Shown here: positions 7,385-29,882 of the stretch, in pieces
Layout: each line of letters opens with the position of its first letter
Numbering within the stretch: the stretch's first letter is position 1
Source: an uncultured Prevotellaceae bacterium
GTDB lineage: Bacteria; Bacteroidota; Bacteroidia; Bacteroidales; Bacteroidaceae
NCBI GenBank assembly: GCA_900315455.1
Contig: OMZE01000029.1
Coordinates: 1-47,679, forward strand
DNA: 47,679 nt
Reading direction: 5' to 3'
The notes under the pieces: generated by a model
The model's input: the letters and a program-made list of their open reading frames with translations, nothing else
Databases searched by the model: none
What the model was told of the DNA's origin: nothing
Made by a program: the position numbers and the translations under genes

Positions 7385-7417
7385 TTGATTTAAATCAAGA
7401 AAATTGTACTGTCTACA
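7385..7417 (+). promoter_or_regulatory. Paired dyads upstream of small RNA copy 1
   Basis: A perfect palindrome, TTGATTTAAATCAA (7385-7398), has the TTGA-N6-TCAA form used by FNR/CRP-family regulators. A second dyad, TGTA-N5-TACA (7405-7417), lies about 20 bp downstream, centred about 60 bp before the predicted RNA start. Both recur at identical spacing before copy 2. The binding protein is unknown. Confidence 0.55.
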
Positions 7418-7434
7418 CTTTTTCTATGGAAAAA

Positions 7435-7466
7435 TTTGCAAAACACGATGCGAGGTATTAACTTTG
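7435..7466 (+). promoter_or_regulatory. Promoter of small RNA copy 1
   Basis: TTTG (7435-7438), 20 bp and TAACTTTG (7459-7466) form an ideal Bacteroidetes promoter, with a predicted start about 5 nt downstream. Confidence 0.85.
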
Positions 7467-7470
7467 CATC

Positions 7471-7536
7471 GTGTTTTTCATAGTATTAGATTTAAGGTTA
7501 ACAAAGGTTGGAGTACGGCGGTACTCCTTTTTTTTT
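7471..7536 (+). ncRNA. Small RNA, copy 1 of a duplicated pair
   Basis: A short transcription unit of about 66 nt starts after the promoter box at 7459-7466 and ends in a terminator: GGAGTAC (7510-7516), loop GGCG, GTACTCC (7521-7527), then nine T. From 7459 to 7534 it is identical to 14725-14800. The 5' part is A/U-rich and looks unpaired, with two AAGGTT copies separated by AACA that could act as a pairing seed. There is no ATG and no convincing peptide. It ends 10 bp before the stop codon of the convergent RDD gene. I recall that families of paralogous sRNAs have been reported in Bacteroides, but cannot confirm membership here. Confidence 0.8.
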
Positions 7537-7546
7537 GCCCATACCC

Positions 7547-8263
7547 TTACACCACCTTCGTGGTATAGTATTGGAAGTCGTTGAAGATGGTGGTAAGAAA
7601 GTCTTCCGCAGTGCCCTCTTTGGGGTTCACGCTTAGAAAATTCTTCACTTTGTTTCCCAACATGTTGATGTCTATCTCGCGCATCTTGTTGTTCGTCGAA
7701 TAGAGAGTGCGGGCTATCAGGTTGAATTGCCTCATCGACAAATTCGCCGCCTCAGGATAGGTAGGCTGATAGTTGGGGTTGGTGTAGTAGAGGTCGTAGA
7801 AACTGATCGACGGATTCTGGCGGTTCACCTTCACTACGGTAGTGCCGGCGGCCAGGTCGCCCAATCGCTGACTGTTCTTCGTGAAGATGATGAAGGTGAG
7901 ACCTACAACACCCATCAGCAGGTCGACGAGCAACAGCAGCCACCTCAGAAGGTAGGAGCCTATCGAAGGTTTTGAACCGTCGAGTTTCGCCACTTTGATG
8001 CCCACGGCCATCTTTCCCACGCTCTGACCGTTGTTGAACACCTCCATCGCAAATGGATACATGAGGAGGGCCATTTGCAAGATGAGGTAGAAAGCAATGG
8101 CTGGTTCGCTGGAGAAAAACGGGGACATGATGGCGGCAATACTCAAAGAGGCAAACCAAATGATGGCGGAGTCGATGAGAAATGCCACAAACCGTTGCAT
8201 CACGGTGGCGGCAGGTTGGCGGATGCAGACATATTGTCCGGTGATAATACTGGTCTGTGCCAT
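7547..8263 (-). CDS. RDD family membrane protein
   Basis: The 238-residue product carries an RDD domain in its first 150 residues. It begins with RFVAFLIDSAIIWFAS, where the Arg and Asp sit in the first membrane segment, followed by two or three more hydrophobic segments (FYLILQMALLMYPFAM; WLLLLVDLLMGVVGLTFII) and the motif GQSVGKMAVGIKV. The C-terminal 90 residues are soluble. RDD proteins are poorly characterised membrane proteins; some affect ion homeostasis. It is divergently transcribed from a SpoIIM-MoxR-DUF58 operon with overlapping promoters, a conserved neighbourhood in Bacteroidetes that suggests one functional unit. Confidence 0.9.
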   Translation of the reverse strand: MAQTSIITGQYVCIRQPAATVMQRFVAFLIDSAIIWFASLSIAAIMSPFFSSEPAIAFYLILQMALLMYPFAMEVFNNGQSVGKMAVGIKVAKLDGSKPSIGSYLLRWLLLLVDLLMGVVGLTFIIFTKNSQRLGDLAAGTTVVKVNRQNPSISFYDLYYTNPNYQPTYPEAANLSMRQFNLIARTLYSTNNKMREIDINMLGNKVKNFLSVNPKEGTAEDFLTTIFNDFQYYTTKVV

Positions 8264-8279
8264 TATTTTTCTTGTTTGC

Positions 8280-8311
8280 TTGCAAAATTAGTTTTTTTTT
8301 CCCTACTTTTG
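8280..8311. promoter_or_regulatory. Overlapping divergent promoters of RDD gene and SpoIIM operon
   Basis: Plus strand: TTG (8280-8282), 21 bp, TACTTTTG (8304-8311). Minus strand: TAATTTTG, read from 8290 to 8283. The two -7 boxes lie about 20 bp apart back to back, so both units share one control region and could be co-regulated or compete for polymerase. Confidence 0.7.
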
Positions 8312-8348
8312 CATTCTTGAATGATAAAAAAGACGAAATAGTTGTTGA

Positions 8349-9314
8349 ATGAAGGAAGCACAGTTCGTAAGACGTCATATCGAAAAATGGAAAAAGGCAG
8401 AACTGCTCTTGGGTTCTCCCCTTTATGCCACACCCGACGAGTTGGTGGATGCCTACAACGAGGTGACGTCCGACTTGGCTTTCGCACAGACCCATTTCCC
8501 TGAGTCGGCGGTCACCCCTTACCTCAACGACCTGGCATTGGCGCTCCACCATGGCCTCTACCGCAACAAGCGCGACCCGTGGTCAAGACTCATCACGTTC
8601 TGGACACACGAGATACCGCTCAGCGTCTATGAGGCACGGCGGCCTTTGCTCGTGTCGCTCGCTGTCTTCGTCGCTTTTATCATCATTGGCATGCTCTCCA
8701 CGTTTGGCGACCCGGAGTTTCCGCGCCTTATCCTTGGCGACTCTTATGTCGACATGACGCTCGAGAACATCGAGAACGGGGAGCCGATGGCTGTCTATGG
8801 CGGCGACTCGCAGGTTCTCTCGTTCGCCAGCATCACCATCAACAATGTGATGGTGGCTTTTCGCAGTTATGTGATGGGGGTGTTCACCAGTTTAGGCACC
8901 TGCTTCTTCCTGATGTACAATGGCATCATGGTGGGGGCTTTCGTCACATTCTTCATGGTTCGCCATCTCTTCGTGGAGTCGATATTGGCCATCATGCTTC
9001 ATGGCACGTTGGAACTGTCGGCCATCGTCATCGCTGGAGGTGCCGGCATCACGTTGGGCAACGGATGGCTGTTTCCCGGCACTTACAGCCGCATGCAGTC
9101 GTTTGTAAGGGCAGCCCGGCATAGCGTCAAGGTGCTCATCTCCACGGTGCCCGTATTCGTCATCGCCGGTTTCATCGAGGGCTTTTTCACCCGTTATACT
9201 GAGATAGGCGATGCCATCAGGTTGCTGGTCATCCTCTCCTCGCTGGCCTTCGTCATCTTCTACTACGTGCTCTTACCCATCAAACGCCATCGCGATGCTC
9301 AAGCCCAGGGATAA
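8349..9314 (+). CDS. Stage II sporulation protein M-like membrane protein
   Basis: The 321-residue product has a soluble N-terminal region (about 1-95), then a SpoIIM-type domain with five or six membrane segments: LLVSLAVFVAFIIIGMLSTF, ITINNVMVAFRSYVMGVFTSLGT, MVGAFVTFFMV, HGTLELSAIVIAGGAGITLG and a final pair near the C-terminus. The stretch LHGTLELSAIVIAGGAG is characteristic. SpoIIM acts in septal peptidoglycan remodelling in sporulating Firmicutes; this organism does not sporulate, so the role must differ. It is the first gene of an operon and its last 20 bases overlap the next gene. Confidence 0.88.
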   Translation: MKEAQFVRRHIEKWKKAELLLGSPLYATPDELVDAYNEVTSDLAFAQTHFPESAVTPYLNDLALALHHGLYRNKRDPWSRLITFWTHEIPLSVYEARRPLLVSLAVFVAFIIIGMLSTFGDPEFPRLILGDSYVDMTLENIENGEPMAVYGGDSQVLSFASITINNVMVAFRSYVMGVFTSLGTCFFLMYNGIMVGAFVTFFMVRHLFVESILAIMLHGTLELSAIVIAGGAGITLGNGWLFPGTYSRMQSFVRAARHSVKVLISTVPVFVIAGFIEGFFTRYTEIGDAIRLLVILSSLAFVIFYYVLLPIKRHRDAQAQG

Positions 9315-10185
9315 GATATTGGTTTATCAGTGGCGCACGCTCTCGCAACGTATCGAGGCGGTTTTCGATTTCCTGCGCCAGTGCCGCAGGGCATGGTTCC
9401 TGTCGGTCGCTGTGCTTTTCCTCCCCGTTTGCGTGGTGCTCACCTCGTCGGCTTTCTTCCATCTTGTACGGGTGAGGCGACAGGAAACGCCGTATGAATG
9501 GTTCGACGACTTCTTCGGATGGGGCAATGGTCCATCGGCTCTGGTATATGGTGGCGTGGCGCTCGTGGGGGTGTGGGCAGTGTTCATCCATGTCTATTCG
9601 CTGCTGGCGGCTTATGAGCACAACGACTTCTGTCTTGACGGCATCTCTGTGCGTAAGTTGTGGCCTTATATTAAAGCCAATCTCTTGCCTACACTCGTGC
9701 CAACGGCAGTGACAGTCGTGGCCATCCTTCTGGTTGTCAATGCTTTTAATGCGTTTGTCGTTTTCCTTATGTTGGTAATTGCCATTCCCTTGTCGTTGTT
9801 CGCTCCTGTCTATATGATAGAGCGATGTGGGTTTATGCGGGCGATGGCAAAGGCCATCAACTTGGGGTTCTCGTCGTGGATGAGCCTGGCCTTCAGCATT
9901 GTGATGATAGTGCTCATCGGCGGACTGATGCTGTTGTCGGTCAATGTGCCGTGGATGTTGGCGCGAGTGTTCCTCGACACGTTCTCCTTCAACGGACAGG
10001 AATGGGGATATGTCATGCTCTTGCGCTTCGTCAGTCTCTTGCTCACCATCGTAGGCTACCTCAGTTGCTACATGGTGGGTGCCATGGTGGCGCTGCTCTG
10101 CGTCTATCACTATGGCTACATGGCAGAGATGCGGGGCGACAATGCCGTATATGGGAAAACCATCGATGATTTCGATAAATTGTGA
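9295..10185 (+). CDS. Multi-pass membrane protein of the SpoIIM-MoxR operon
   Basis: The 296-residue product has about six hydrophobic segments (WFLSVAVLFLPVCVVLTS, ALVYGGVALVGVWAVFIHVY, VPTAVTVVAILLVVNAF, FLMLVIAIPLSLFAPVYMI, FSIVMIVLIGGLMLLSV, FVSLLLTIVGYLSCYMVGAM) and short polar ends. I chose ATG 9295, which overlaps the SpoIIM-like gene by 20 bp, because an upstream extension would read through that gene's coding end. I recognise no named domain. Its position between SpoIIM-like and DUF4129 genes suggests a structural or sensory part of the same membrane module. Confidence 0.8.
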   Translation: MLKPRDKILVYQWRTLSQRIEAVFDFLRQCRRAWFLSVAVLFLPVCVVLTSSAFFHLVRVRRQETPYEWFDDFFGWGNGPSALVYGGVALVGVWAVFIHVYSLLAAYEHNDFCLDGISVRKLWPYIKANLLPTLVPTAVTVVAILLVVNAFNAFVVFLMLVIAIPLSLFAPVYMIERCGFMRAMAKAINLGFSSWMSLAFSIVMIVLIGGLMLLSVNVPWMLARVFLDTFSFNGQEWGYVMLLRFVSLLLTIVGYLSCYMVGAMVALLCVYHYGYMAEMRGDNAVYGKTIDDFDKL

Positions 10186-10257
10186 TAAGAAAGAAATAGA
10201 ATGCCGAACTCCTGATAGTTGAGCGAAAGCGAGACAATAGATAAAAAGTCAATCTGC

Positions 10258-10884
10258 ATGCCAGTCAATACCAATTCCATCATGAGCAACGACTCACTCG
10301 CCGCGAGTCTGTTCCAAGGGCACGATTACAATCGTTCGCTCGTGGGCGACTCTCTGGTGCAGCAATCCATGGAATGGGAGAAACTGCCTGATGCAGAACC
10401 GAAGACCAACCATATCGGGGAATTTTTCGACGGCGTTGCCAACTTCTTGGCCGACCTGCCCACGTTTGTCTATGTCATCTTCGGCGTGGTGTTCGCGGCA
10501 TGCCTCGCCTATTGGATGGTCAAGAGCGGCTTGTTCTATAGCAACCCCGTGCTCGATGGGGATGATGTGGAGGAGGGCACAGAAGACATCTATGCCGTCG
10601 ACATCGACAGCGAACTCGACAACGCACGGCAGCAACTCGACCATGCTGCTATTGTGCGGCTCATCTACCTACGCACCCTCCGTTTCCTCGACGAGAGCCA
10701 CCGCATCGACTGGCGCATCTACAAGACTCCTTCGCAGTATGCGCGGGAATACGCACATCCCTCGTTCGCCACAATGACCCGTCATTTCCTCCGGGTGAGG
10801 TACGGCAAGTTCCCTGCCTCACAGGAGATGTGCGACGAGATGGAGGCGCTCAGCCTCCAGGTGCAGAAAGGAGGTGAGGCATGA
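10258..10884 (+). CDS. DUF4129-type protein
   Basis: The product is 208 residues from ATG 10258 (ATG 10282 is also possible; a TTG at 10219 is less likely). A short polar N-terminus is followed by one membrane segment (FVYVIFGVVFAACLAYWMV, about residues 66-84), then a soluble C-terminal helical domain of the DUF4129 kind: AAIVRLIYLRTLRFL, RIDWRIYKTPSQYARE and MTRHFLRVRYGKFPASQEMC. DUF4129 domains are commonly encoded beside MoxR/DUF58 genes. The stop codon overlaps the next start, implying translational coupling. Confidence 0.82.
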   Translation: MPVNTNSIMSNDSLAASLFQGHDYNRSLVGDSLVQQSMEWEKLPDAEPKTNHIGEFFDGVANFLADLPTFVYVIFGVVFAACLAYWMVKSGLFYSNPVLDGDDVEEGTEDIYAVDIDSELDNARQQLDHAAIVRLIYLRTLRFLDESHRIDWRIYKTPSQYAREYAHPSFATMTRHFLRVRYGKFPASQEMCDEMEALSLQVQKGGEA

Positions 10885-12314
10885 GTAAGAATCTGCTGGC
10901 TATGATAGCCCTTGTCATCGTGGTAGGAGCAGTATATCTATGGATGCAGGCCAACCGCTCTTTCAACTGGGCTGCCCGTTATGCCCACGATGGCGACGAA
11001 CCGTTCGACTGCGAGATATTCGACAGCATCGCCTCGGCCACCATGCCCAAGGGCTATACTTTCTGGCAAGAGTCGTTCGACAGCCTGATGCATGTGCCGG
11101 GCAAAAAGTCGTTGCTTATCATCAATAAAACGTGGGCAGGCGACTCTACCGCCTTCTTGCGCCTCGACTCCTGTGTCAGGGCGGGGTGCAAAGTGCTGTG
11201 GGTGCTCGAAAACAACGCCATGTGGTTGGGAGAGAAATATAGTTTGAATGCAAGTTATGATTATGCGGATGTCGACACGCTGGCCAAGTCGCTCAAGGGT
11301 CAACTGCCTCTTGATACCCTGGAGTGGGTGGGCAGCAACCCCGTGACCACGACCATCAACCAGGGACTCTTTTCTTCCTGGTTCCGATGGGGATACGACA
11401 GACGTTTCAAGGTGACGGCATGGGTGAGTTCTTCCTCTTTGTGGGAAAAACTTGATCAATCGAGAAACTTGCTTGGTGAGGATACTGACATCGCTGCTAT
11501 TGGTGAGGTGGTGGACGCTATGGAAAATGATACCATTGGAGCAGAGGAGTATGAAGAGAAAAGAGATAAATATGGAGATATCTTCGACAACCTGTCTTAC
11601 GACGATGCCGATCTTTGGAAGTCTTATCTCCATACTGGCCAGTTGAGAATGCCCATAGCATTGGCAGGAAAGGTGGGCAAAGGGTGGTATTATGTCTCGT
11701 CCACACCGAGGTTCTTCACCAACTATGGTGCCCTCGACCCCCGTATCTCCAAATTCCTCAATCGCCAATTGGCACAACTGGCCGACTATCCCACTTATAG
11801 AATCGATAAAAAACTGTTGGAGAGTGAACGGCAATATTCGTCGAATAATAATGATTTCACGATGTCGCCGCTTTCCTATATGCTCTCCCGTCCACCGCTG
11901 CGCTGGGCGCTCTACACGCTTCTGGCTGCCGTCATCCTCTTCATGCTCTTCACTGCCCGCCGTCGGCAGCGGGTCATCCCCGTGCTGCCGCCACTCACCA
12001 ACCGCAACCTGGAGTTCGTGCGCTTGCTGGGCACCATCTACTTCCGGCGGCACGACAACCTCGACCTGCTTCGGAAGAAGTATACCTACTTTAAGGACGA
12101 CGTGCGGCGACGCCTGATGATGGACCTCGACGATGAGAAAAGTGAGAGGCAGAATGCACGCATACTGGCACAGCGGGCATCGCTCGATGAGGAGGAGGTG
12201 GTGGAGTTGCTCAGCAGCCTGCGCGGACTGGCCAAACTCAACGATGGCGACATCAGTGCCATCACTCTCAAAGACTATATCAATCGAATAGAAAACATAT
12301 CCAAACACCTGTAA
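10881..12314 (+). CDS. DUF4350 domain protein
   Basis: The 477-residue product has an N-terminal membrane segment (AMIALVIVVGAVYLWMQ), a large soluble domain (about 30-330) containing KKSLLIINKTWAGDSTAFLRLDSCVRAGCKVLWVLEN, typical of DUF4350, and a second membrane segment (LRWALYTLLAAVILFMLF, about 345-362) before a cytoplasmic helical tail. The domain resembles a degenerate glutamine-amidotransferase-like Rossmann fold, so it may bind a ligand rather than catalyse. It overlaps the DUF4129 gene by 4 bp and sits 2 bp before moxR. Confidence 0.82.
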   Translation: MSKNLLAMIALVIVVGAVYLWMQANRSFNWAARYAHDGDEPFDCEIFDSIASATMPKGYTFWQESFDSLMHVPGKKSLLIINKTWAGDSTAFLRLDSCVRAGCKVLWVLENNAMWLGEKYSLNASYDYADVDTLAKSLKGQLPLDTLEWVGSNPVTTTINQGLFSSWFRWGYDRRFKVTAWVSSSSLWEKLDQSRNLLGEDTDIAAIGEVVDAMENDTIGAEEYEEKRDKYGDIFDNLSYDDADLWKSYLHTGQLRMPIALAGKVGKGWYYVSSTPRFFTNYGALDPRISKFLNRQLAQLADYPTYRIDKKLLESERQYSSNNNDFTMSPLSYMLSRPPLRWALYTLLAAVILFMLFTARRRQRVIPVLPPLTNRNLEFVRLLGTIYFRRHDNLDLLRKKYTYFKDDVRRRLMMDLDDEKSERQNARILAQRASLDEEEVVELLSSLRGLAKLNDGDISAITLKDYINRIENISKHL

Positions 12315-12316
12315 TC

Positions 12317-13291
12317 ATGGAAGAGAATACCCAACAACGCCTTGACCTCACGGCATTTCACCAGAAAATCATGCTTATACGCCAACAGATAGGCACAGTG
12401 GTGGTGGGACAGACAAATGCCGTCGACCTTTTGCTCACCGCGGTGCTCGCCGACGGACATGTGTTGCTCGAAGGGGTGCCGGGGGTGGCCAAGACCCTGC
12501 TCGCCAAAATCCTGGCTCGGCTTATCGACGCACGGTTCAGCCGACTGCAGTTCACTCCCGACCTCATGCCCAGCGACGTGCTGGGAACTACCGTCTTCAA
12601 CGTGAAAAACTCGGAGTTCGACTTCCATAAGGGACCTGTCTTCGCCGACATCGTGCTCGTCGACGAAATCAACCGTGCACCGGCAAAGACACAGGCTGCC
12701 CTCTTCGAGGTGATGGAGGAACGGCAGGCCACCATCGACGGCGTCACCTATCCCATGGGCGACCTCTTCACCGTGATCGCCACGCAGAATCCCGTGGAAC
12801 AGGAGGGCACTTATAAGTTACCGGAGGCGCAACTCGACCGCTTCCTCATGAAGGTGGTGATGATTTACCCGCCTGCAGAACTTGAAATGGTCATCCTGAA
12901 ACGCCATCATGAGAACGCCCGGCTGGCCAAACTCGATGGCATCACCCCGCTGCTCTCGAAAGACGAACTGCTAGGGTTCCGGCAACTCATCAACCAGGTG
13001 GTGGTAGAGGAGTGCCTGCTCAAGTATATCATCGATGTGGTGCAACTCACCCGCAATTCCAAGGCGGTATATCTCGGAGCGTCGCCAAGGGCGGCAGTGG
13101 CACTGTTGAGGGCATCAAAGGCATATGCGCTCTTGCAGGGACGCGACTTCGTTGCCCCCGACGACATCAAGTTCGTGGCGCCATCGGTGCTCCGCCACCG
13201 ACTCGTCCTCACTGCTGAGGCCGAGATGGAGGGTTACGACACGGCAAGACTCATCGCCACACTGCTCGAACAAGTGGAAGTTCCAAAATAA
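12317..13291 (+). CDS. MoxR family AAA+ ATPase
   Basis: The 324-residue product shows the MoxR signature: Walker A GVPGVAKTLLAK (about residue 54), Walker B IVLVDEINRAPAKTQ (about 112), sensor I region VIATQNPVEQEGTYKLPEAQLDRF (about 152) and a C-terminal lid domain (about 230-320). MoxR ATPases act as chaperone-like remodelling factors, usually with von Willebrand-type or DUF58 partners, to mature or activate enzyme complexes. DUF58 lies 8 bp downstream, the classic pairing. A substrate cannot be read from the sequence; the surrounding membrane proteins are the best candidates. Confidence 0.94.
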   Translation: MEENTQQRLDLTAFHQKIMLIRQQIGTVVVGQTNAVDLLLTAVLADGHVLLEGVPGVAKTLLAKILARLIDARFSRLQFTPDLMPSDVLGTTVFNVKNSEFDFHKGPVFADIVLVDEINRAPAKTQAALFEVMEERQATIDGVTYPMGDLFTVIATQNPVEQEGTYKLPEAQLDRFLMKVVMIYPPAELEMVILKRHHENARLAKLDGITPLLSKDELLGFRQLINQVVVEECLLKYIIDVVQLTRNSKAVYLGASPRAAVALLRASKAYALLQGRDFVAPDDIKFVAPSVLRHRLVLTAEAEMEGYDTARLIATLLEQVEVPK

Positions 13292-13299
13292 ACACGTAA

Positions 13300-14613
13300 A
13301 TGTTTCTCCAACGCAGGTTCTATATCGTCATCGCTGTCGTGGCCATCATCATGGCTGCAGGCGTATGGGTAACACCGCTCTTTATCCTAGGGCAGTGCCT
13401 GCTCGTTGCGGCAGTGGTAGCGACTGCTTTCGAGGCACTGACTCTCTTTGCCAAGGCTGGGGTAGGGGCCGCGCGTTACTGTAGCCAACGGTTCTCGCTT
13501 GGCGACGACAATGAGGTGAGGCTGAGACTGACCAACCGCTCACCGTTCGACCTGAAGACAGAAATCATCGACGAACTGCCAGAGCAGTTTCAGAAACGCG
13601 ACTTCCTGCTGCGGCTCCGTGTGCCCAGAAACGAGAGCGTCACGACTACCTATACGCTCCGACCCACAGCGCGTGGCGACTATCGTTTCGGAAGGGTGAT
13701 GGTTTTCGCCACCACGCCAATGGGGCTGGTAGCACGCCGCTTCGTTTGCGGACAGCCTCTGGCAGTGAAGGTCTATCCTTCGTTTCTCAAACTGAAACAG
13801 TATCTCGTGGCCGCCTCGTCGAACACCCTCACGGAGTCGGGAAGCAAGAGGGTGAGGCGCGCGGGAAACAACACCGACTTCGAACAGATACGCGATTATG
13901 TGCAGGGCGACGACTATCGCACCATCAACTGGAAGGCGACGGCGCGGCGCACTCATCTCATGGTGAACGTCTATCAGGACGAGCGCTCGCAGGAAATCTA
14001 CTGCCTCATCGACAAAGGCCGGCTGATGCAACAGTCGTTTGAGGGAATGACACTGCTCGACTATGCCATCAATTCTTCACTGGTGCTCTCCTATGTCGCC
14101 GTCAACAAGCAAGACAAGGCCGGGCTGGTCACCTTCGCCGAAGAGATGGGGTCGTTTGTACCGGCGGGAAGACAGCATCAGCAGATGCAAATCATCCTTG
14201 AGGCACTGTATGCACAGCAGACTTCTTTCGCCGAGACCGATTATTCTATGCTTTGCCCTAATCTCAACAAACTGGTGGCAAAAAGGAGTTTCATGGTACT
14301 TTTCACCAATTTCACTGACTATGGGTCGCTCCTACGGCAACTCGAATACCTGCAACTGCTCAACAAGCGCCACAGACTGCTCGTGGTGTTCTTCAACGAC
14401 GTGGAACTGTCAGATTTCGTCAATTCGCCAAAACGCACCGAGGAAGACTATTACCAGCATGTCATCGCCGAAAAACTCATCTATGAGCGGCGGCTCATAC
14501 AGAGTTCTCTCAGGCAGCATGGCATTTACAGCGTACTCACCAACCCAAAGACACTCTCCGCAGATGTCGTCAACAAGTATATGGAGATGAAGTCGAGGCA
14601 TTTGCTCGCATAA
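13300..14613 (+). CDS. DUF58 domain protein, MoxR partner
   Basis: The 437-residue product starts with two hydrophobic segments (FYIVIAVVAIIMAAGVWV; FILGQCLLVAAVVATAF), followed by a beta-rich region (about 65-160) and the DUF58 core with NNTDFEQIRDYVQGDDYRTINWKATAR near residue 190. The remainder resembles a von Willebrand factor A fold (EIYCLIDKGRLM..., later SFMVLFTNFTDY), but the first metal-binding loop lacks the standard DxSxS, reading DKGRL. It closes the operon that starts with the SpoIIM-like gene. The likely role is to carry MoxR to its envelope target. Confidence 0.92.
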   Translation: MFLQRRFYIVIAVVAIIMAAGVWVTPLFILGQCLLVAAVVATAFEALTLFAKAGVGAARYCSQRFSLGDDNEVRLRLTNRSPFDLKTEIIDELPEQFQKRDFLLRLRVPRNESVTTTYTLRPTARGDYRFGRVMVFATTPMGLVARRFVCGQPLAVKVYPSFLKLKQYLVAASSNTLTESGSKRVRRAGNNTDFEQIRDYVQGDDYRTINWKATARRTHLMVNVYQDERSQEIYCLIDKGRLMQQSFEGMTLLDYAINSSLVLSYVAVNKQDKAGLVTFAEEMGSFVPAGRQHQQMQIILEALYAQQTSFAETDYSMLCPNLNKLVAKRSFMVLFTNFTDYGSLLRQLEYLQLLNKRHRLLVVFFNDVELSDFVNSPKRTEEDYYQHVIAEKLIYERRLIQSSLRQHGIYSVLTNPKTLSADVVNKYMEMKSRHLLA

Positions 14614-14650: not shown

Positions 14651-14683
14651 TTGATATAAGTCAAGAAAAATGTATATTATACA
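14651..14683 (+). promoter_or_regulatory. Paired dyads upstream of small RNA copy 2
   Basis: TTGATATAAGTCAA (14651-14664) keeps the TTGA-N6-TCAA core, and TGTATATTATACA (14671-14683) keeps TGTA-N5-TACA. Both sit at the same distance from the -7 box as in copy 1, although the bases inside and between them differ. That pattern suggests selection on the half-sites. Confidence 0.55.
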
Positions 14684-14700: not shown

Positions 14701-14732
14701 ATTGCAAAAGCCGAAAAAGGCAATTAACTTTG
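14701..14732 (+). promoter_or_regulatory. Promoter of small RNA copy 2
   Basis: ATTG (14701-14704), 20 bp and TAACTTTG (14725-14732) form the promoter, with the same spacing as copy 1. Confidence 0.82.
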
Positions 14733-14736
14733 CATC

Positions 14737-14800
14737 GTGTTTTTCATAGTATTAGATTTAAGGTTAACAAAGGTTGGAGTACGGCGGTACTCCTTTTTTT
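14737..14800 (+). ncRNA. Small RNA, copy 2 of a duplicated pair
   Basis: This copy is identical to 7459-7534 across 14725-14800, including the terminator hairpin GGAGTAC/GTACTCC (14776-14782, 14787-14793) and seven T. Predicted length is about 64 nt. It lies between the DUF58 gene and the C10 protease gene on the same strand, with its own promoter, so it is an independent unit rather than a leader of the protease mRNA, although readthrough is possible. Confidence 0.8.
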
Positions 14801-14894
14801 GTGCCATCACTTGAAGTCTTTGCTTTTTCAGGGCATTTCCCTTCATTTCTTTTTGAAATAAAGTGGATAATTTCTTGTTTTACAATATTTTTGT

Positions 14895-14928: not shown

Positions 14929-17900
14929 ATGAATAGAATATGTTGCACGGTCATCGCGTTTTTTGTTTGTCTGCTCGCCATGGCCAATCCCATCTCACAA
15001 CAACAGGCTCTGCGCAAAGCACAAGACTTTGCGGGGAAACGCATGCGCCTCTCGTCAGGACAGTTGAAACTGGCGCATGTGGGACAGAAAGATGGTGTGG
15101 CAGGATGGTTCGCGTTCAATATGCCGGAAAAGAAGGGATTTGTTATCATTTCCGGAAACGACCAGGCTGAGGAGATCCTGGGATACGCCGACAAGGGAGA
15201 GTTCGACTACGACAACATGCCTGAAAACATGAAGGTGTGGCTCGAACAATACAGCCAGAGCATACAGGCCATCAACGACGGGGCCATGCGACCGGCAAAG
15301 GCTAAACATCCTACGGAAGTGGTGGAGCCCTTAATCACTTCGCTCTGGGGACAGAAAGAACCATTCAACAGCCAGTGCCCGACAATCAATGCCTCGCGGT
15401 GTCCCGCGGGATGCACGGCGGTGGCCATGGCTCAGGTGATGCGTTACCATCGGTTCCCCACGACAAGTATTGATGCCATCCCCGCCTATACCACCGTCAC
15501 GGTGGGCCTCGACATGCCTGAGTTGCCCGCCACTACCTTCGATTGGGACAAGATGCCCGATGTGCTCACGCCGGAGTCGCCCCAGGAAAGTATCAACGAG
15601 GTGGCCAAACTCATGCTTTATTGTGGACAGTCTACCGACATGGACTATGTGGCTACGGGAAGCGGGGCCTATACCTATCTCATCCCACAGCGGTTGCCTA
15701 AGTATTTCAATTACCCCAAGACAATACATTACGTCTACCGCAGGTCCTACGACGAGGCACAGTGGGACAGCCTCCTTATGCATGAATTGCTCAATGGCCG
15801 ACCGGTCATCTACACCGCATACACCAACCTCTCACAAGGACATACTTTCATCTGCGATGGCTACGACGGCAATGGCCTCTATCACATCAACTGGGGATGG
15901 GTCGGTGCCGGCAATGGTTACTACCGCATCTCCGTGGCATGTGCTGAGGGCGAGGGACTCGACGAGAACATCAAGAACTACCAACTGAGCATCAACCAGT
16001 CGGCACTCCTCGGCATCAAACCTGAAGGGAAGGATGAATTCGTGGCTCCCGAGGATGTATATAATGCCTATTCCAGACCAAGTCTGAAAAATGGAACCAC
16101 TTATACCCGCTCGGCGAAGAAAAATGACTTCCAGAATATCACTCTCAAGCAGGTGTTCATCAATTCTGCCTCAACCACAAAAAGCCTCTCCTATGGGGTG
16201 GCGCTGTTCAACGAGAGTGGGAAACTGACCAGGGTGCTGGCGGCCTTTACTACCAAACTCTCATCAGGGGCAACCAAAACCATGGAGGCTGCCGACCTGT
16301 CTTTCGGGGCGGGAATTGTGGGGCACTATACACTCAAGGCTGTTTACAAGCCCAGTAGTACTGCCGATTGGCAAGCGATGGGGGGAACAGACCGAAACTA
16401 TATCGATGTGACGATTACCAACACTGAGATGACGCTCACATCGGTGCCAAAAGCCCATTTCGAGGTGAAAGGAGTAGAGATGGAGGACGATCACCTCCAT
16501 ATACTGTTCGACAACAACGACGAGGATTTCTTCGGACCAATATATCTCAGGAGAATGGTTCCCTCGACAGGACAAATCACAGCGGTGGCCAGCGATAATA
16601 TCTCGTTCGAATCGGGCACCAGCCGCGACTTCAGCATCTATGTCGACAAAAGCAAGAAATTCGACCCCTATGCCGATGAGTTCTATCTCTCTGTGGATGA
16701 GTATAATACTCAATATTTCTACACTAACCTGTCGGAAGAGGAAAGCCCACTCGAGAAAAGCATCGAAATCCTCAACCTGAGCGAAGATGGCACCACTATC
16801 GTTGGCGACAGGGCTATGTGCAGGGTTACCGTAACCAATGTAGGAGAGAAAAGATACAAAAACTACCTCACCTTATCCACCATCGACAGCAATGACTTGA
16901 CAACGGAGGTGGAATGCGAACTCATAGAACTGCAACCGGGGGCTTCACTTGTCAGACAATACGAAGCTCCTATCAGCGATTATACTGTCGACTATAGTTT
17001 GATGGCTTCTCACCATCGCACCCTTTATACATGGGTCAACGATACTACGGAGGTGAAACATGTCTCCAAAGGGGCCATCTACTGGACAAAAGACGGACAA
17101 CTCAAGACAAAGGTGGCAGAAGGGGTGTTCGAGGTTCCTGAAGAGGCTGTTGCCATCAACCTCCGCGGTGCATACACCTCCAATAATGTCGTACCCAACA
17201 GCAACCCCAACACCATCTACATGCTCGACAAGACGATCCCGAGCCGGCTTGCCCACTCCAACTACGTCAATGCGTCCAACAAAGGTGGAAAACTGACGTT
17301 GGTTGATGGATACGACTATTTCTTCCCCATCGAGATGTCTTTCTCGGGAGGGGTTTCCTACGAAAGGGTCATTGCCGATACGGTGAATTTCGAATGGAAC
17401 ACGATGACCCTTCCTTTCACACCCACTTATGTCAGTGCCGAAGGAAGCCTGCTGGCCTGGTATGCTGATGCCGATGCCACAGAGGGCGACTTCTGGCTGT
17501 TCAACTTCAAGGGGGTGGAGAATGATACCGTCAGGACATCGTATGCCGGAGGGGTGGAGGCTGATGTGCCTTGCTTGATGGCATACGACAACCGCCTGGC
17601 AGGGCAGACCATCATGTTCTTCACTGCGGATAAGACCACCATTGCACCTACCACCTTGCATCCTACACTCTCCAAGGGCGATTTCAGCATGGTGGGAACC
17701 AACATGCGTGAGCCGGTAGGCAGTGGCTTTGTGCTCAGCGACAACAAATGGGTGTGGACAGGCGATGATACCGACAGCGAGGAATCTGCCTCACACACTG
17801 CCGATGCCTTCAGGGCTTTCGTCACCACCACGGCAGCAGCCGGCAATGTTTTGACTATTGATGTCGACGGCATCATCAACCCACAGGGAACTGTCTTGAT

Positions 17901-18075
17901 GGGTGACGTCAACAACGATGGATTAATCAATATTGTTGATGTCAGCACCACCATCAACTATATTCTTGGAAATGCTCCTGAGGCCTTCTCTATAAAAGCG
18001 GCCGATATGAATGGTGATGGGTTCGTCAATGTTTCTGATGTGACAACAATGATTTCCGTTATCCTCCATCTTTAG
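14929..18075 (+). CDS. Secreted C10 family (streptopain-like) cysteine protease with dockerin-like C-terminus
   Basis: The 1048-residue product has a signal peptide (CTVIAFFVCLLAMA), then an inhibitory prodomain (about 20-125: QALRKAQDFAG... GFVIISGNDQAEEILGYAD). The C10 catalytic domain (about 130-360) has CPAGCTAVAMAQVMRYH with the nucleophile at Cys162, and GHTFICDGYDG...YHINWGWVGAGNGYYRI with His305. The long middle region (about 370-980) looks like beta-rich adhesive or Ig-like modules. The end (about 990-1048) carries two calcium-loop repeats, DVNNDGLINIVD and DMNGDGFVNVSD, as in type I dockerins. It resembles SpeB and Prevotella interpain and probably degrades host or dietary protein after export. 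I do not see the usual T9SS C-terminal domain. Confidence 0.92.
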   Translation: MNRICCTVIAFFVCLLAMANPISQQQALRKAQDFAGKRMRLSSGQLKLAHVGQKDGVAGWFAFNMPEKKGFVIISGNDQAEEILGYADKGEFDYDNMPENMKVWLEQYSQSIQAINDGAMRPAKAKHPTEVVEPLITSLWGQKEPFNSQCPTINASRCPAGCTAVAMAQVMRYHRFPTTSIDAIPAYTTVTVGLDMPELPATTFDWDKMPDVLTPESPQESINEVAKLMLYCGQSTDMDYVATGSGAYTYLIPQRLPKYFNYPKTIHYVYRRSYDEAQWDSLLMHELLNGRPVIYTAYTNLSQGHTFICDGYDGNGLYHINWGWVGAGNGYYRISVACAEGEGLDENIKNYQLSINQSALLGIKPEGKDEFVAPEDVYNAYSRPSLKNGTTYTRSAKKNDFQNITLKQVFINSASTTKSLSYGVALFNESGKLTRVLAAFTTKLSSGATKTMEAADLSFGAGIVGHYTLKAVYKPSSTADWQAMGGTDRNYIDVTITNTEMTLTSVPKAHFEVKGVEMEDDHLHILFDNNDEDFFGPIYLRRMVPSTGQITAVASDNISFESGTSRDFSIYVDKSKKFDPYADEFYLSVDEYNTQYFYTNLSEEESPLEKSIEILNLSEDGTTIVGDRAMCRVTVTNVGEKRYKNYLTLSTIDSNDLTTEVECELIELQPGASLVRQYEAPISDYTVDYSLMASHHRTLYTWVNDTTEVKHVSKGAIYWTKDGQLKTKVAEGVFEVPEEAVAINLRGAYTSNNVVPNSNPNTIYMLDKTIPSRLAHSNYVNASNKGGKLTLVDGYDYFFPIEMSFSGGVSYERVIADTVNFEWNTMTLPFTPTYVSAEGSLLAWYADADATEGDFWLFNFKGVENDTVRTSYAGGVEADVPCLMAYDNRLAGQTIMFFTADKTTIAPTTLHPTLSKGDFSMVGTNMREPVGSGFVLSDNKWVWTGDDTDSEESASHTADAFRAFVTTTAAAGNVLTIDVDGIINPQGTVLMGDVNNDGLINIVDVSTTINYILGNAPEAFSIKAADMNGDGFVNVSDVTTMISVILHL

Positions 18076-28700: not shown

Positions 28701-29882
28701 TTAGTGATGGAACAGACGCACACCGATGAATGCCATGGCAATTCCGTATTTGTCGCAGGTCTCTATCACGTTGTCGTCGCGCACCGAACCGCCTGCCTGG
28801 GCGATGTACTCCACACCGCTCTTATGGGCTCGCTCGATGTTGTCGCCGAAGGGGAAGAAGGCATCGCTGCCCAGTGACACTTTCGTATTCTGTGCTATCC
28901 AGGCTTTCTTCTCTTCCATGGTGAGCACCTCGGGCTTCTCAGTGAAGAACTGCTGCCAGGTGCCGTCGCGGAGCACGTCGTCGTGGTCTTCGCTGATATA
29001 CACATCAATTGTGTTGTCGCGGTCGGCACGACGGATGCCGGGGACGAAGGGCAGACCCATCACCTTCGGGTGCTGGCGGAGCCACCAGATGTCGGCTTTG
29101 TTGCCGGCAAGGCGGGTGCAGTGGATGCGGCTCTGCTGACCGGCTCCGATGCCGATGGCCTGACCGTCTTTCACATAGCACACGCTGTTGCTCTGCGTGT
29201 ATTTCAACGTGATGAGGGCGATGATGAGGTCGCGGCGGGCTTCATCGGTGAACGTCTTGCACTGTGTGGGGATGTTCTCAAACAGCGAGGGGTCGTCGAG
29301 ACGTATCTCGTTGCGTCCCTGCTCGAAAGTGATGCCAAACACCTGCTTGCGCTCGATAGGGGCAGGCTGGTAGGTGGGGTCAATCTTGATGACATTGTAG
29401 GTGCCCTTGCGCTTGGCACGCAGAATCTCCAATGCCTCGGGAGTATAGTCGGGGGCGATAACGCCGTCGCTCACCTCACGCTTCAGGAGATTGGCGGTCA
29501 CGGCATCGCAGGTGTCGCTCAGCGCTACGAAGTCGCCGTAACTGCTCATACGGTCGGCACCGCGGGCACGGGCATAGGCGCAGGCGATGGGAGAGAGTTC
29601 CTCCTTGATGTCGTCAACGAAATACACCTTCTTGAGTGTGTCGCTGAGGGGAAGTCCCACGGCAGCACCGGCGGGCGACACGTGTTTGAAACTGGCGGCG
29701 GAGGGCAGGCCGGTGGCTTGCTTCAACTCTTTCACCAGTTGCCAACTGTTCAGGGCATCGAGGAAATTGATGTAGCCGGGACGGCCATTGAGCACTTCGA
29801 GGGGTAACTCACCCTCTTCCATGAAGATGCGGGAGGGTTTCTGGTTGGGGTTGCAACCGTATTTCAATGCTAACTCTTTCAT
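28701..29882 (-). CDS. AICAR transformylase (stand-alone PurH-like)
   Basis: The 393-residue product corresponds to the transformylase portion of PurH without the N-terminal IMP cyclohydrolase (MGS-like) domain. It starts LKYGCNPNQKPSRIF, contains ASFKHVSPAGAAVGLPL with the Lys-His catalytic region, RGADRMSSYGDFVALSD and AGQQSRIHCTRLAGNKAD. It formylates AICAR using 10-formyl-tetrahydrofolate in purine synthesis; the cyclohydrolase step must be encoded elsewhere. This single-domain form is typical of Bacteroidales. Its gene follows rplS on the minus strand, separated by a terminator. Confidence 0.93.
   Translation of the reverse strand: MKELALKYGCNPNQKPSRIFMEEGELPLEVLNGRPGYINFLDALNSWQLVKELKQATGLPSAASFKHVSPAGAAVGLPLSDTLKKVYFVDDIKEELSPIACAYARARGADRMSSYGDFVALSDTCDAVTANLLKREVSDGVIAPDYTPEALEILRAKRKGTYNVIKIDPTYQPAPIERKQVFGITFEQGRNEIRLDDPSLFENIPTQCKTFTDEARRDLIIALITLKYTQSNSVCYVKDGQAIGIGAGQQSRIHCTRLAGNKADIWWLRQHPKVMGLPFVPGIRRADRDNTIDVYISEDHDDVLRDGTWQQFFTEKPEVLTMEEKKAWIAQNTKVSLGSDAFFPFGDNIERAHKSGVEYIAQAGGSVRDDNVIETCDKYGIAMAFIGVRLFHH

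Follow-up and report, generated by a model that had tools for sequence, protein, structure and literature searches.

Paired FopS small RNA genes with a putative CRP/FNR-type promoter dyad in a Prevotella-type Bacteroidaceae genome

A 47,679-nucleotide stretch of DNA from an uncultured Prevotellaceae bacterium (contig OMZE01000029.1; the whole stretch is hereafter called the window) contains two copies of a small RNA (sRNA) gene which, judged by covariance-model score, are new members of the known sRNA family FopS. The reading that we favor, with a probability of roughly 0.8, is that both loci encode FopS RNAs that are activated through an upstream dyad, repress their targets by means of a seed, probably act without the protein RbpB, and derive from an old duplication. 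The RNA family itself is known; new here are a different upstream switch, the occurrence of two promoter classes per genome, and the lack of a detectable RbpB-type protein.

A preliminary description of this DNA reported an identical RNA body in two copies over 76 bp and suspected membership in a paralogous Bacteroides sRNA family. We find that the identity extends over 78 bp (7457-7534 and 14723-14800), far beyond chance, and that both copies match the Rfam family RF04319, FopS, at 78.5 and 78 bits, respectively, against a cut-off of 56 (Table 1). The FopS paralogues were described in Bacteroides thetaiotaomicron (PMC11697453). Genome-wide, four copies exceed the cut-off: the window holds a pair, contig C35 a third copy, whose sole difference from the window body is a single inserted A, and contig C89 the fourth. 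Contig C28 has a weak match (37.7 bits), which a second search at E 0.01 did not recover, and four others are weaker still (E >1). Across the genus, 111 of 120 genomes (that of the window included) have a FopS match, 109 of them above the cut-off; among genomes with completeness of 90% or more and contamination of 5% or less, every one (56 of 56) has a match. A set of 26 well-assembled genomes, consisting of the window's own and 25 FopS-matching genomes chosen for completeness and few contigs, provided 82 matches at E<=0.001 (76 above the cut-off). The genus carries 1-5 copies per genome in this set, and up to 6 in the survey of 120, compared with the 12-15 reported for Bacteroides species (PMC11697453) and the 6-12 that we counted in genus g2 with the same tool.

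The suggestion that each locus is a complete small RNA gene also held up, as its predicted elements comprise a promoter of the form TTTG-N20-TAACTTTG in copy 1 and ATTG-N20-TAACTTTG in copy 2, an ATG-free body of 64 nt, a hairpin and a T run. The promoter directly upstream of both window copies is of the sigma-ABfr type. Throughout the genus set (26 genomes) its elements are well conserved: 81 of the 82 copies have a TAnnTTTG -7 element, preceded by TTG at a distance of 19 nt in 27 copies and 20 nt in 47. Model score, R1-type seed, terminator, promoter type and the presence of several copies are all shared with the FopS family of B. thetaiotaomicron (RF04319).

Conservation of the RNA itself is concentrated at its 5' end. 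Nucleotides 3-22 are unchanged in 81 or 82 of the 82 copies, with nt 12 as the exception (A in 46 copies); 78 copies begin with the 21-nt seed if either A or G is accepted there. The seed proposed earlier, AAGGTT-AACA-AAGGTT, was only partly right: the near-invariant part is nt 1-22 bar nt 12, whereas the second AAGGTT varies among relatives and was rejected as part of the seed on that ground. In the predicted fold, nt 1-31 are unpaired, the terminator hairpin is formed and the U run is partly paired with nt 32-37; 7 of 200 shuffled sequences fold as well as the FopS RNA. The model alignment and this fold together place the R1-type seed in the unpaired 5' part.

The terminator hairpin is supported by covariation. 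We aligned 42 of the 53 distinct bodies found, and because their first 32 nt are fixed by the search pattern except for one A/G, only the stem counts as evidence. Standard pairs fill 98.6% of the 294 hairpin pair cells, and cells changed on both sides number 78, against a shuffle mean of 23.7 and at most 6 in slid versions of the hairpin. Two of the five covariation measures, pairs with two-sided change (180/500) and further pair types (275/500), did not rise above shuffles.

Table 1. Coordinates of predicted elements of the two FopS loci in the window
Feature	Position	Strand	Basis
CRP/FNR-type dyad TTGATTTAAATCAA, perfect palindrome, centre -79.5, copy 1	7385..7398	+	sequence; fixed distance to -7 box in relatives
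-33 element TTTG of sigma-ABfr-type promoter, copy 1	7435..7438	+	sequence
-7 element TAACTTTG, copy 1	7459..7466	+	TAnnTTTG in relatives
FopS RNA, copy 1	7471..7534	+	RF04319 (Rfam match 7471-7537); start inferred from model and promoter
R1-type 5' seed (nt 1-21), predicted unpaired, copy 1	7471..7491	+	model alignment, fold, conservation, PMC11697453
Terminator hairpin GGAGTAC-GGCG-GTACTCC and T run, copy 1	7510..7536	+	sequence, covariation
CRP/FNR-type dyad TTGATATAAGTCAA, centre -79.5, copy 2	14651..14664	+	sequence, relatives
-33 element ATTG, copy 2	14701..14704	+	sequence
-7 element TAACTTTG, copy 2 (N20 after ATTG)	14725..14732	+	sequence
FopS RNA, copy 2	14737..14800	+	RF04319 (Rfam match 14737-14803); identical to 7471-7534
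Terminator hairpin and T run, copy 2	14776..14800	+	sequence, covariation

Upstream of the core promoter, the flanks of the two copies had been described as diverging. This is not simply so: between about -84 and -25 the copies agree at 46 of 60 positions (compared in ten-base windows), and both contain a TTGAT-N4-RTCAA dyad at an identical distance from the start (-79.5). The half-sites of this dyad have the form of CRP/FNR-family boxes. In the genus set, where A or T was permitted at one outer base, the dyad is present upstream of 39 of the 82 copies, against 0.06 expected from base shuffles; its centre lies at -79.5 in 30 of these, at -80.5 in five, at -78.5 in two and elsewhere in two. As fewer than half of the genus copies have it, the dyad is inessential to FopS. 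Copies with and without it coexist in 22 of the 26 genomes, and they differ in the RNA as well. Bodies in the genus form two subtypes, which track promoter class and set the genus apart from FopS of B. thetaiotaomicron: the subtype lacking an ATT insertion includes 37 dyad and 14 non-dyad copies, whereas that with the insertion (subtype II) includes one dyad and 28 non-dyad copies, two further copies belonging to neither (Fisher p 6e-10, an optimistic value since the genomes are related).

The dyad is not confined to FopS but belongs to a wider promoter class of fixed geometry. In the 26 genomes we count 285 sites where TANNTTTG lies 50-80 nt downstream of TTGAY-N4-RTCAA, a count that includes the FopS promoters and takes a few boxes twice, compared with four sites for the reversed pattern; this amounts to about 11 dyad-promoter sites per genome. 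Among the 150 sites listed of the 285, the gap from dyad to -7 element is 60 in 68 and 61 in 36 (104 together), with a second mode of 70-71 in 13. The window's own genome has 26 matches to TTGAYNNNNRTCAA, versus 16 for the control pattern, and eight of the 23 located outside the window are centred 68 or 78 bases from a -7 box (the third window site, 33287, is excluded from this count). These eight own-genome promoters share both the dyad and its spacing to the -7 box.

Three CRP/FNR proteins above the Pfam cut-off are encoded in the window's genome, on contigs C78, C35 and C70, and their best matches in the Protein Data Bank are 2gau, 9day and 1zyb. Of these structures, 2gau is CrpPg and 9day is one that we take to be HcpR. 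The genes beside dyad promoters, surveyed at the eight own sites and in 40 stretches of relatives, point to no clear signal or regulator; neighbors that recur in relatives, recognized by eye, include a ksgA operon and genes for a MATE transporter, a winged-helix protein and a small exported protein. The accessible portions of the literature on CRP/FNR proteins yielded no usable consensus for the TTGAY box.

FopS copies of Bacteroides have a different box. A CRP-like regulator, Cur, acts in that genus. The consensus given for Cur (BT4338) is wwwTATGTTnTAnAACATAwww (PMC6989115), and we scored upstream regions for a Cur-like box with at most four mismatches of 14 and a centre between -72 and -52. 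This was done for 86 named copies with at least 110 nt upstream, drawn from 80 listed of at least 119 stretches; the search pattern was the 5' body of the window copies, which favors the subtype without insertion, and taxon labels are those of the record titles. Among the matches listed, 25 of the 29 Bacteroides copies have the Cur-like box, as do all six Mediterranea and all four Phocaeicola copies, compared with one of the 14 Prevotellaceae copies and none of the 19 from Prevotella. The dyad, again among the matches listed, was found upstream of none of the 29 Bacteroides copies, 15 of the 19 from Prevotella and 11 of the 14 from Prevotellaceae. The other 14 listed copies are a mixture from Bacteroidaceae, Bacteroidales, Paraprevotella, Caecibacteroides and one metagenome-assembled genome titled Clostridium, which is probably mislabelled. 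When Cur-like boxes anywhere upstream are considered, 38 of 46 among the matches listed center at -60.5 (chance rate 5.6%). Similarly, 37 of 40 Bacteroides-type upstream regions are within four mismatches of the Cur consensus, and 28 of the 40 contain TGTT-N4-AACA, for which the reversed control gave 0. Bacteroides FopS copies thus have a Cur-like box at -60.5, whereas the window's genus has the TTGAY dyad at -79.5.

Within the window's genus, 44 copies of the other groups include seven with a Cur-like box under the same thresholds, three of them at -60.5 or -61.5; with a chance rate of 5.6%, this is little above chance. In 11 of the 29 subtype-II copies, TGTTA is kept at -66 or -67, the position of the left half of the Bacteroides box, and a remnant of a Cur-type site is a possible interpretation. 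Two viral contigs (L411 and L422) carry FopS with ATGTTATAAAACAT, a Bacteroides-type box, upstream, and by eye other viral contigs have half of it, so a promoter of the Bacteroides type may also travel with phages.

The FopS report speaks of an unknown transcriptional regulator (PMC11697453), and a Bacteroides sRNA, MasB, has been assigned to activation by Cur (PMC10994844). MasB offers a precedent for such control, although its RNA is unrelated to FopS and the box of the window copies is of the TTGAY rather than the Cur type. In the sections available, that report on MasB and Cur contains no mention of FopS that we could find, within a literature search that mostly covered journals other than subscription titles. 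At the SnoA-HcpR locus, a Bacteroides regulatory RNA is tied to a CRP/FNR-family protein, as proposed here for FopS; unlike FopS, SnoA overlaps the hcp promoter (PMC13370916). FopS is mentioned zero times in the accessible text of that preprint.

A further difference from B. thetaiotaomicron concerns the protein partner, which in that species is RbpB, a protein with an RRM_1 domain (PMC11697453). A search of the window's genome for RRM_1 (PF00076) gave no match in 93 contigs (completeness 100, contamination 8). RRM_1 was undetected in 56 of 60 genus genomes, this one included, and matched in the remaining four; in Bacteroides ihuae, the positive control, it was detected. Across the family, 25 of 101 genomes have an RRM_1 match, one of which (in G165) is partial with two internal stops, and 76 have none detected. 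FopS is present in 98 of 101 family genomes, 89 of them above the cut-off, in what is by its listing the same draw as the RRM_1 survey. By genus, g2 has RRM_1 in 13 of its 14 genomes, the window's genus (g1) in 2 of 15 and g9 in 2 of 13, while FopS copies number 6-12 per genome in g2 and 6-10 in g9; in g9, too, FopS copy number and RbpB are uncoupled. Because RRM_1 matches are strong where present, genomes with none probably lack the domain, though a replacement protein would be invisible to this search. Since no RRM_1 protein was detected, FopS probably acts independently of RbpB in the window's genome.

FopS is reported to repress translation of SusC-type mRNAs in B. thetaiotaomicron by pairing at the start codon (PMC11697453). 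In the window copies the seed complement contains ATG, which agrees with start-codon pairing in the family. Mean duplex energy between the FopS 5' end and the start regions of 18 SusC and 17 SusD genes of the same genome was no better than for shuffled seeds. With nt 1-37, 36 of 100 shuffles were as low for SusC and 50 of 100 for SusD; with nt 1-21 the corresponding counts were 29 and 5 of 100, and 7 of 100 for control genes, whose 60 start regions are biased in that some loci were picked by the seed complement. The result speaks against a general preference for SusC, which is unsupported here, but a test of mean energy has little power if few mRNAs are targets and says little about single ones. 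The seed complement TAATACTATGAAAAA occurs at 43 sites in the genome, versus 19 when the pattern is reversed; the four FopS copies and the weak match on C28 account for five of the 43. Start-codon hits among the 30 sites with assigned loci (SusD-like, GH5-like by eye, and others) form no clear class.

We propose the following model. FopS RNAs of approximately 64-67 nt would be transcribed from their own sigma-ABfr-type promoters, each with a predicted unpaired 5' seed and a predicted Rho-independent terminator. By analogy with the family, the seed most likely pairs with start-codon regions of mRNAs for outer-membrane and glycan-uptake proteins, whose translation would be repressed, and RbpB would probably take no part in this genome. 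A putative CRP/FNR-family regulator binding the TTGAY-N4-RTCAA dyad at -79.5 most likely activates this class of copies. The 64-nt identity would reflect conservation of the whole RNA, perhaps with gene conversion, rather than a recent duplication.

Several alternatives bear on this model, beginning with the origin of the repeat, for which selection or recent duplication had been offered. Recent duplication or gene conversion alone might produce the 78-bp identity with no selection on the RNA, and three same-genome pairs of dyad copies, that of the window and those of genomes G009 and G063, do share their first 58 nt exactly; the near-identity of the C35 copy points the same way. A relative, G070, argues otherwise. 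It keeps both loci, in a series comprising glutamate dehydrogenase, PPDK-like, FopS, RDD, SpoIIM, DUF4129, MoxR, DUF58, FopS and MIP genes, and because both are kept the duplication is old. Aligned flanking pieces of G070 and the window are only ~66-87% identical, yet the FopS bodies differ at one position or none, and the 5' part is nearly invariant across the 82 genus copies. Recent duplication was rejected on this evidence, RNA conservation is favored, and we consider an explanation by duplication or conversion alone unlikely; gene conversion may nevertheless contribute to the identity of the terminators. A second explanation of the repeat is that it is the fixed end or a passenger of a mobile element or phage, with the RNA incidental. 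FopS-type sequence does occur in 17 viral-contig stretches, in four of 50,697 phage records (each with less than 80% of the query covered) and in 20 of 72,556 plasmid records, and the authors of the FopS report suggest a role for phages in its dispersal (PMC11697453). On the other hand, the promoter dyad and the terminator mark the limits of the similarity, the hairpin covaries, and both window loci keep their neighbors in other species, a conserved synteny that largely refutes this explanation. The preliminary description had itself raised the fixed end of a mobile element as what would overturn its view; that possibility was not borne out, the similarity spanning dyad to terminator and the neighbors being kept in the relative, and we regard it as very improbable.

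Identity of the RNA and of its regulator invite two further alternatives. That the loci encode GibS or BTnc231 rather than FopS draws on weak similarity to both (GibS 40 bits; BTnc231 33.3 and 30.1 bits), and the window copies share the R1 5' sequence with GibS (RF04182). These scores are far below the respective cut-offs of 115 and 80.4, while FopS scores 78 against 56, and the covariance models therefore refute this assignment, to which we attach next to no probability. GibS RNA is longer and contains R2, a second seed (PMC11697453); the central portion of the GibS model is mostly missing from the window copies, as it is from the FopS family. The dyad, in turn, could be a site for the nitrosative-stress regulator HcpR, which would place these FopS copies in the response to nitric oxide. 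HcpR belongs to the CRP/FNR family, and the genome encodes an HcpR-like protein (the one best matched by 9day, E 6e-37). However, no hcp or nrf gene was recognized by eye beside box promoters at the eight own sites or in the 40 stretches of relatives, and the number of sites per genome, together with housekeeping-type neighbors, suggests a broader regulator, perhaps an orthologue of CrpPg (2GAU). We view control by HcpR as improbable.

The genomic setting of the two loci varies among relatives. At least one of the two FopS positions is kept in ten further stretches. In the window, the FopS copies form direct repeats that bracket an RDD-SpoIIM-DUF4129-MoxR-DUF58 block (7547-14613). Three stretches (L067, L104 and L389) have a lone FopS between PPDK and MIP with the block absent, at 1.1, 2.8 and 0.1 kb from PPDK, respectively, a pattern that would fit recombination at the repeats. 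In the window, FopS copy 2 and the MIP gene are separated by a C10 peptidase gene with Spi inhibitor and dockerin domains (14932-18075), unlike in G070, where MIP directly follows FopS. Elsewhere, FopS sequence is found next to tRNA genes. A FopS-like element in genome G045 (L401, 1201-1266, minus strand; 38.3 bits, below the cut-off) has no promoter of its own and sits between two tRNA genes, 2 nt past the first, which is a tRNA-Glu gene. On a viral contig (L409, 3821-3847, minus strand), a FopS body likewise begins 2 nt past a tRNA-Arg gene. Such elements may be released by tRNA processing. In the window, a 100-nt tRNA-Gly called by ARAGORN at 29066-29165 is unreported by the Rfam tRNA model at its cut-off and is probably spurious.

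In B. thetaiotaomicron, glycan uptake is controlled by an RNA network made up of FopS and RbpB. The data presented here offer candidate activator sites for the RNA side of this network: a Cur-like box at Bacteroides copies and a different one in the window's genus, where the copies fall into two classes. They also reveal many genomes that have FopS but no detectable RRM_1 protein (98 versus 25 of 101 family genomes with each). We speculate, at about even odds, that FopS in Prevotella-type Bacteroidaceae has split into two regulons making nearly the same RNA: a dyad set, to which both window copies would belong, under a global CRP/FNR-family regulator, and another set, including the ATT subtype, outside its control. 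Cur-type input would have been replaced in the dyad copies and RbpB would be missing, and FopS may therefore be an older core that has been wired to different signals by lineage.
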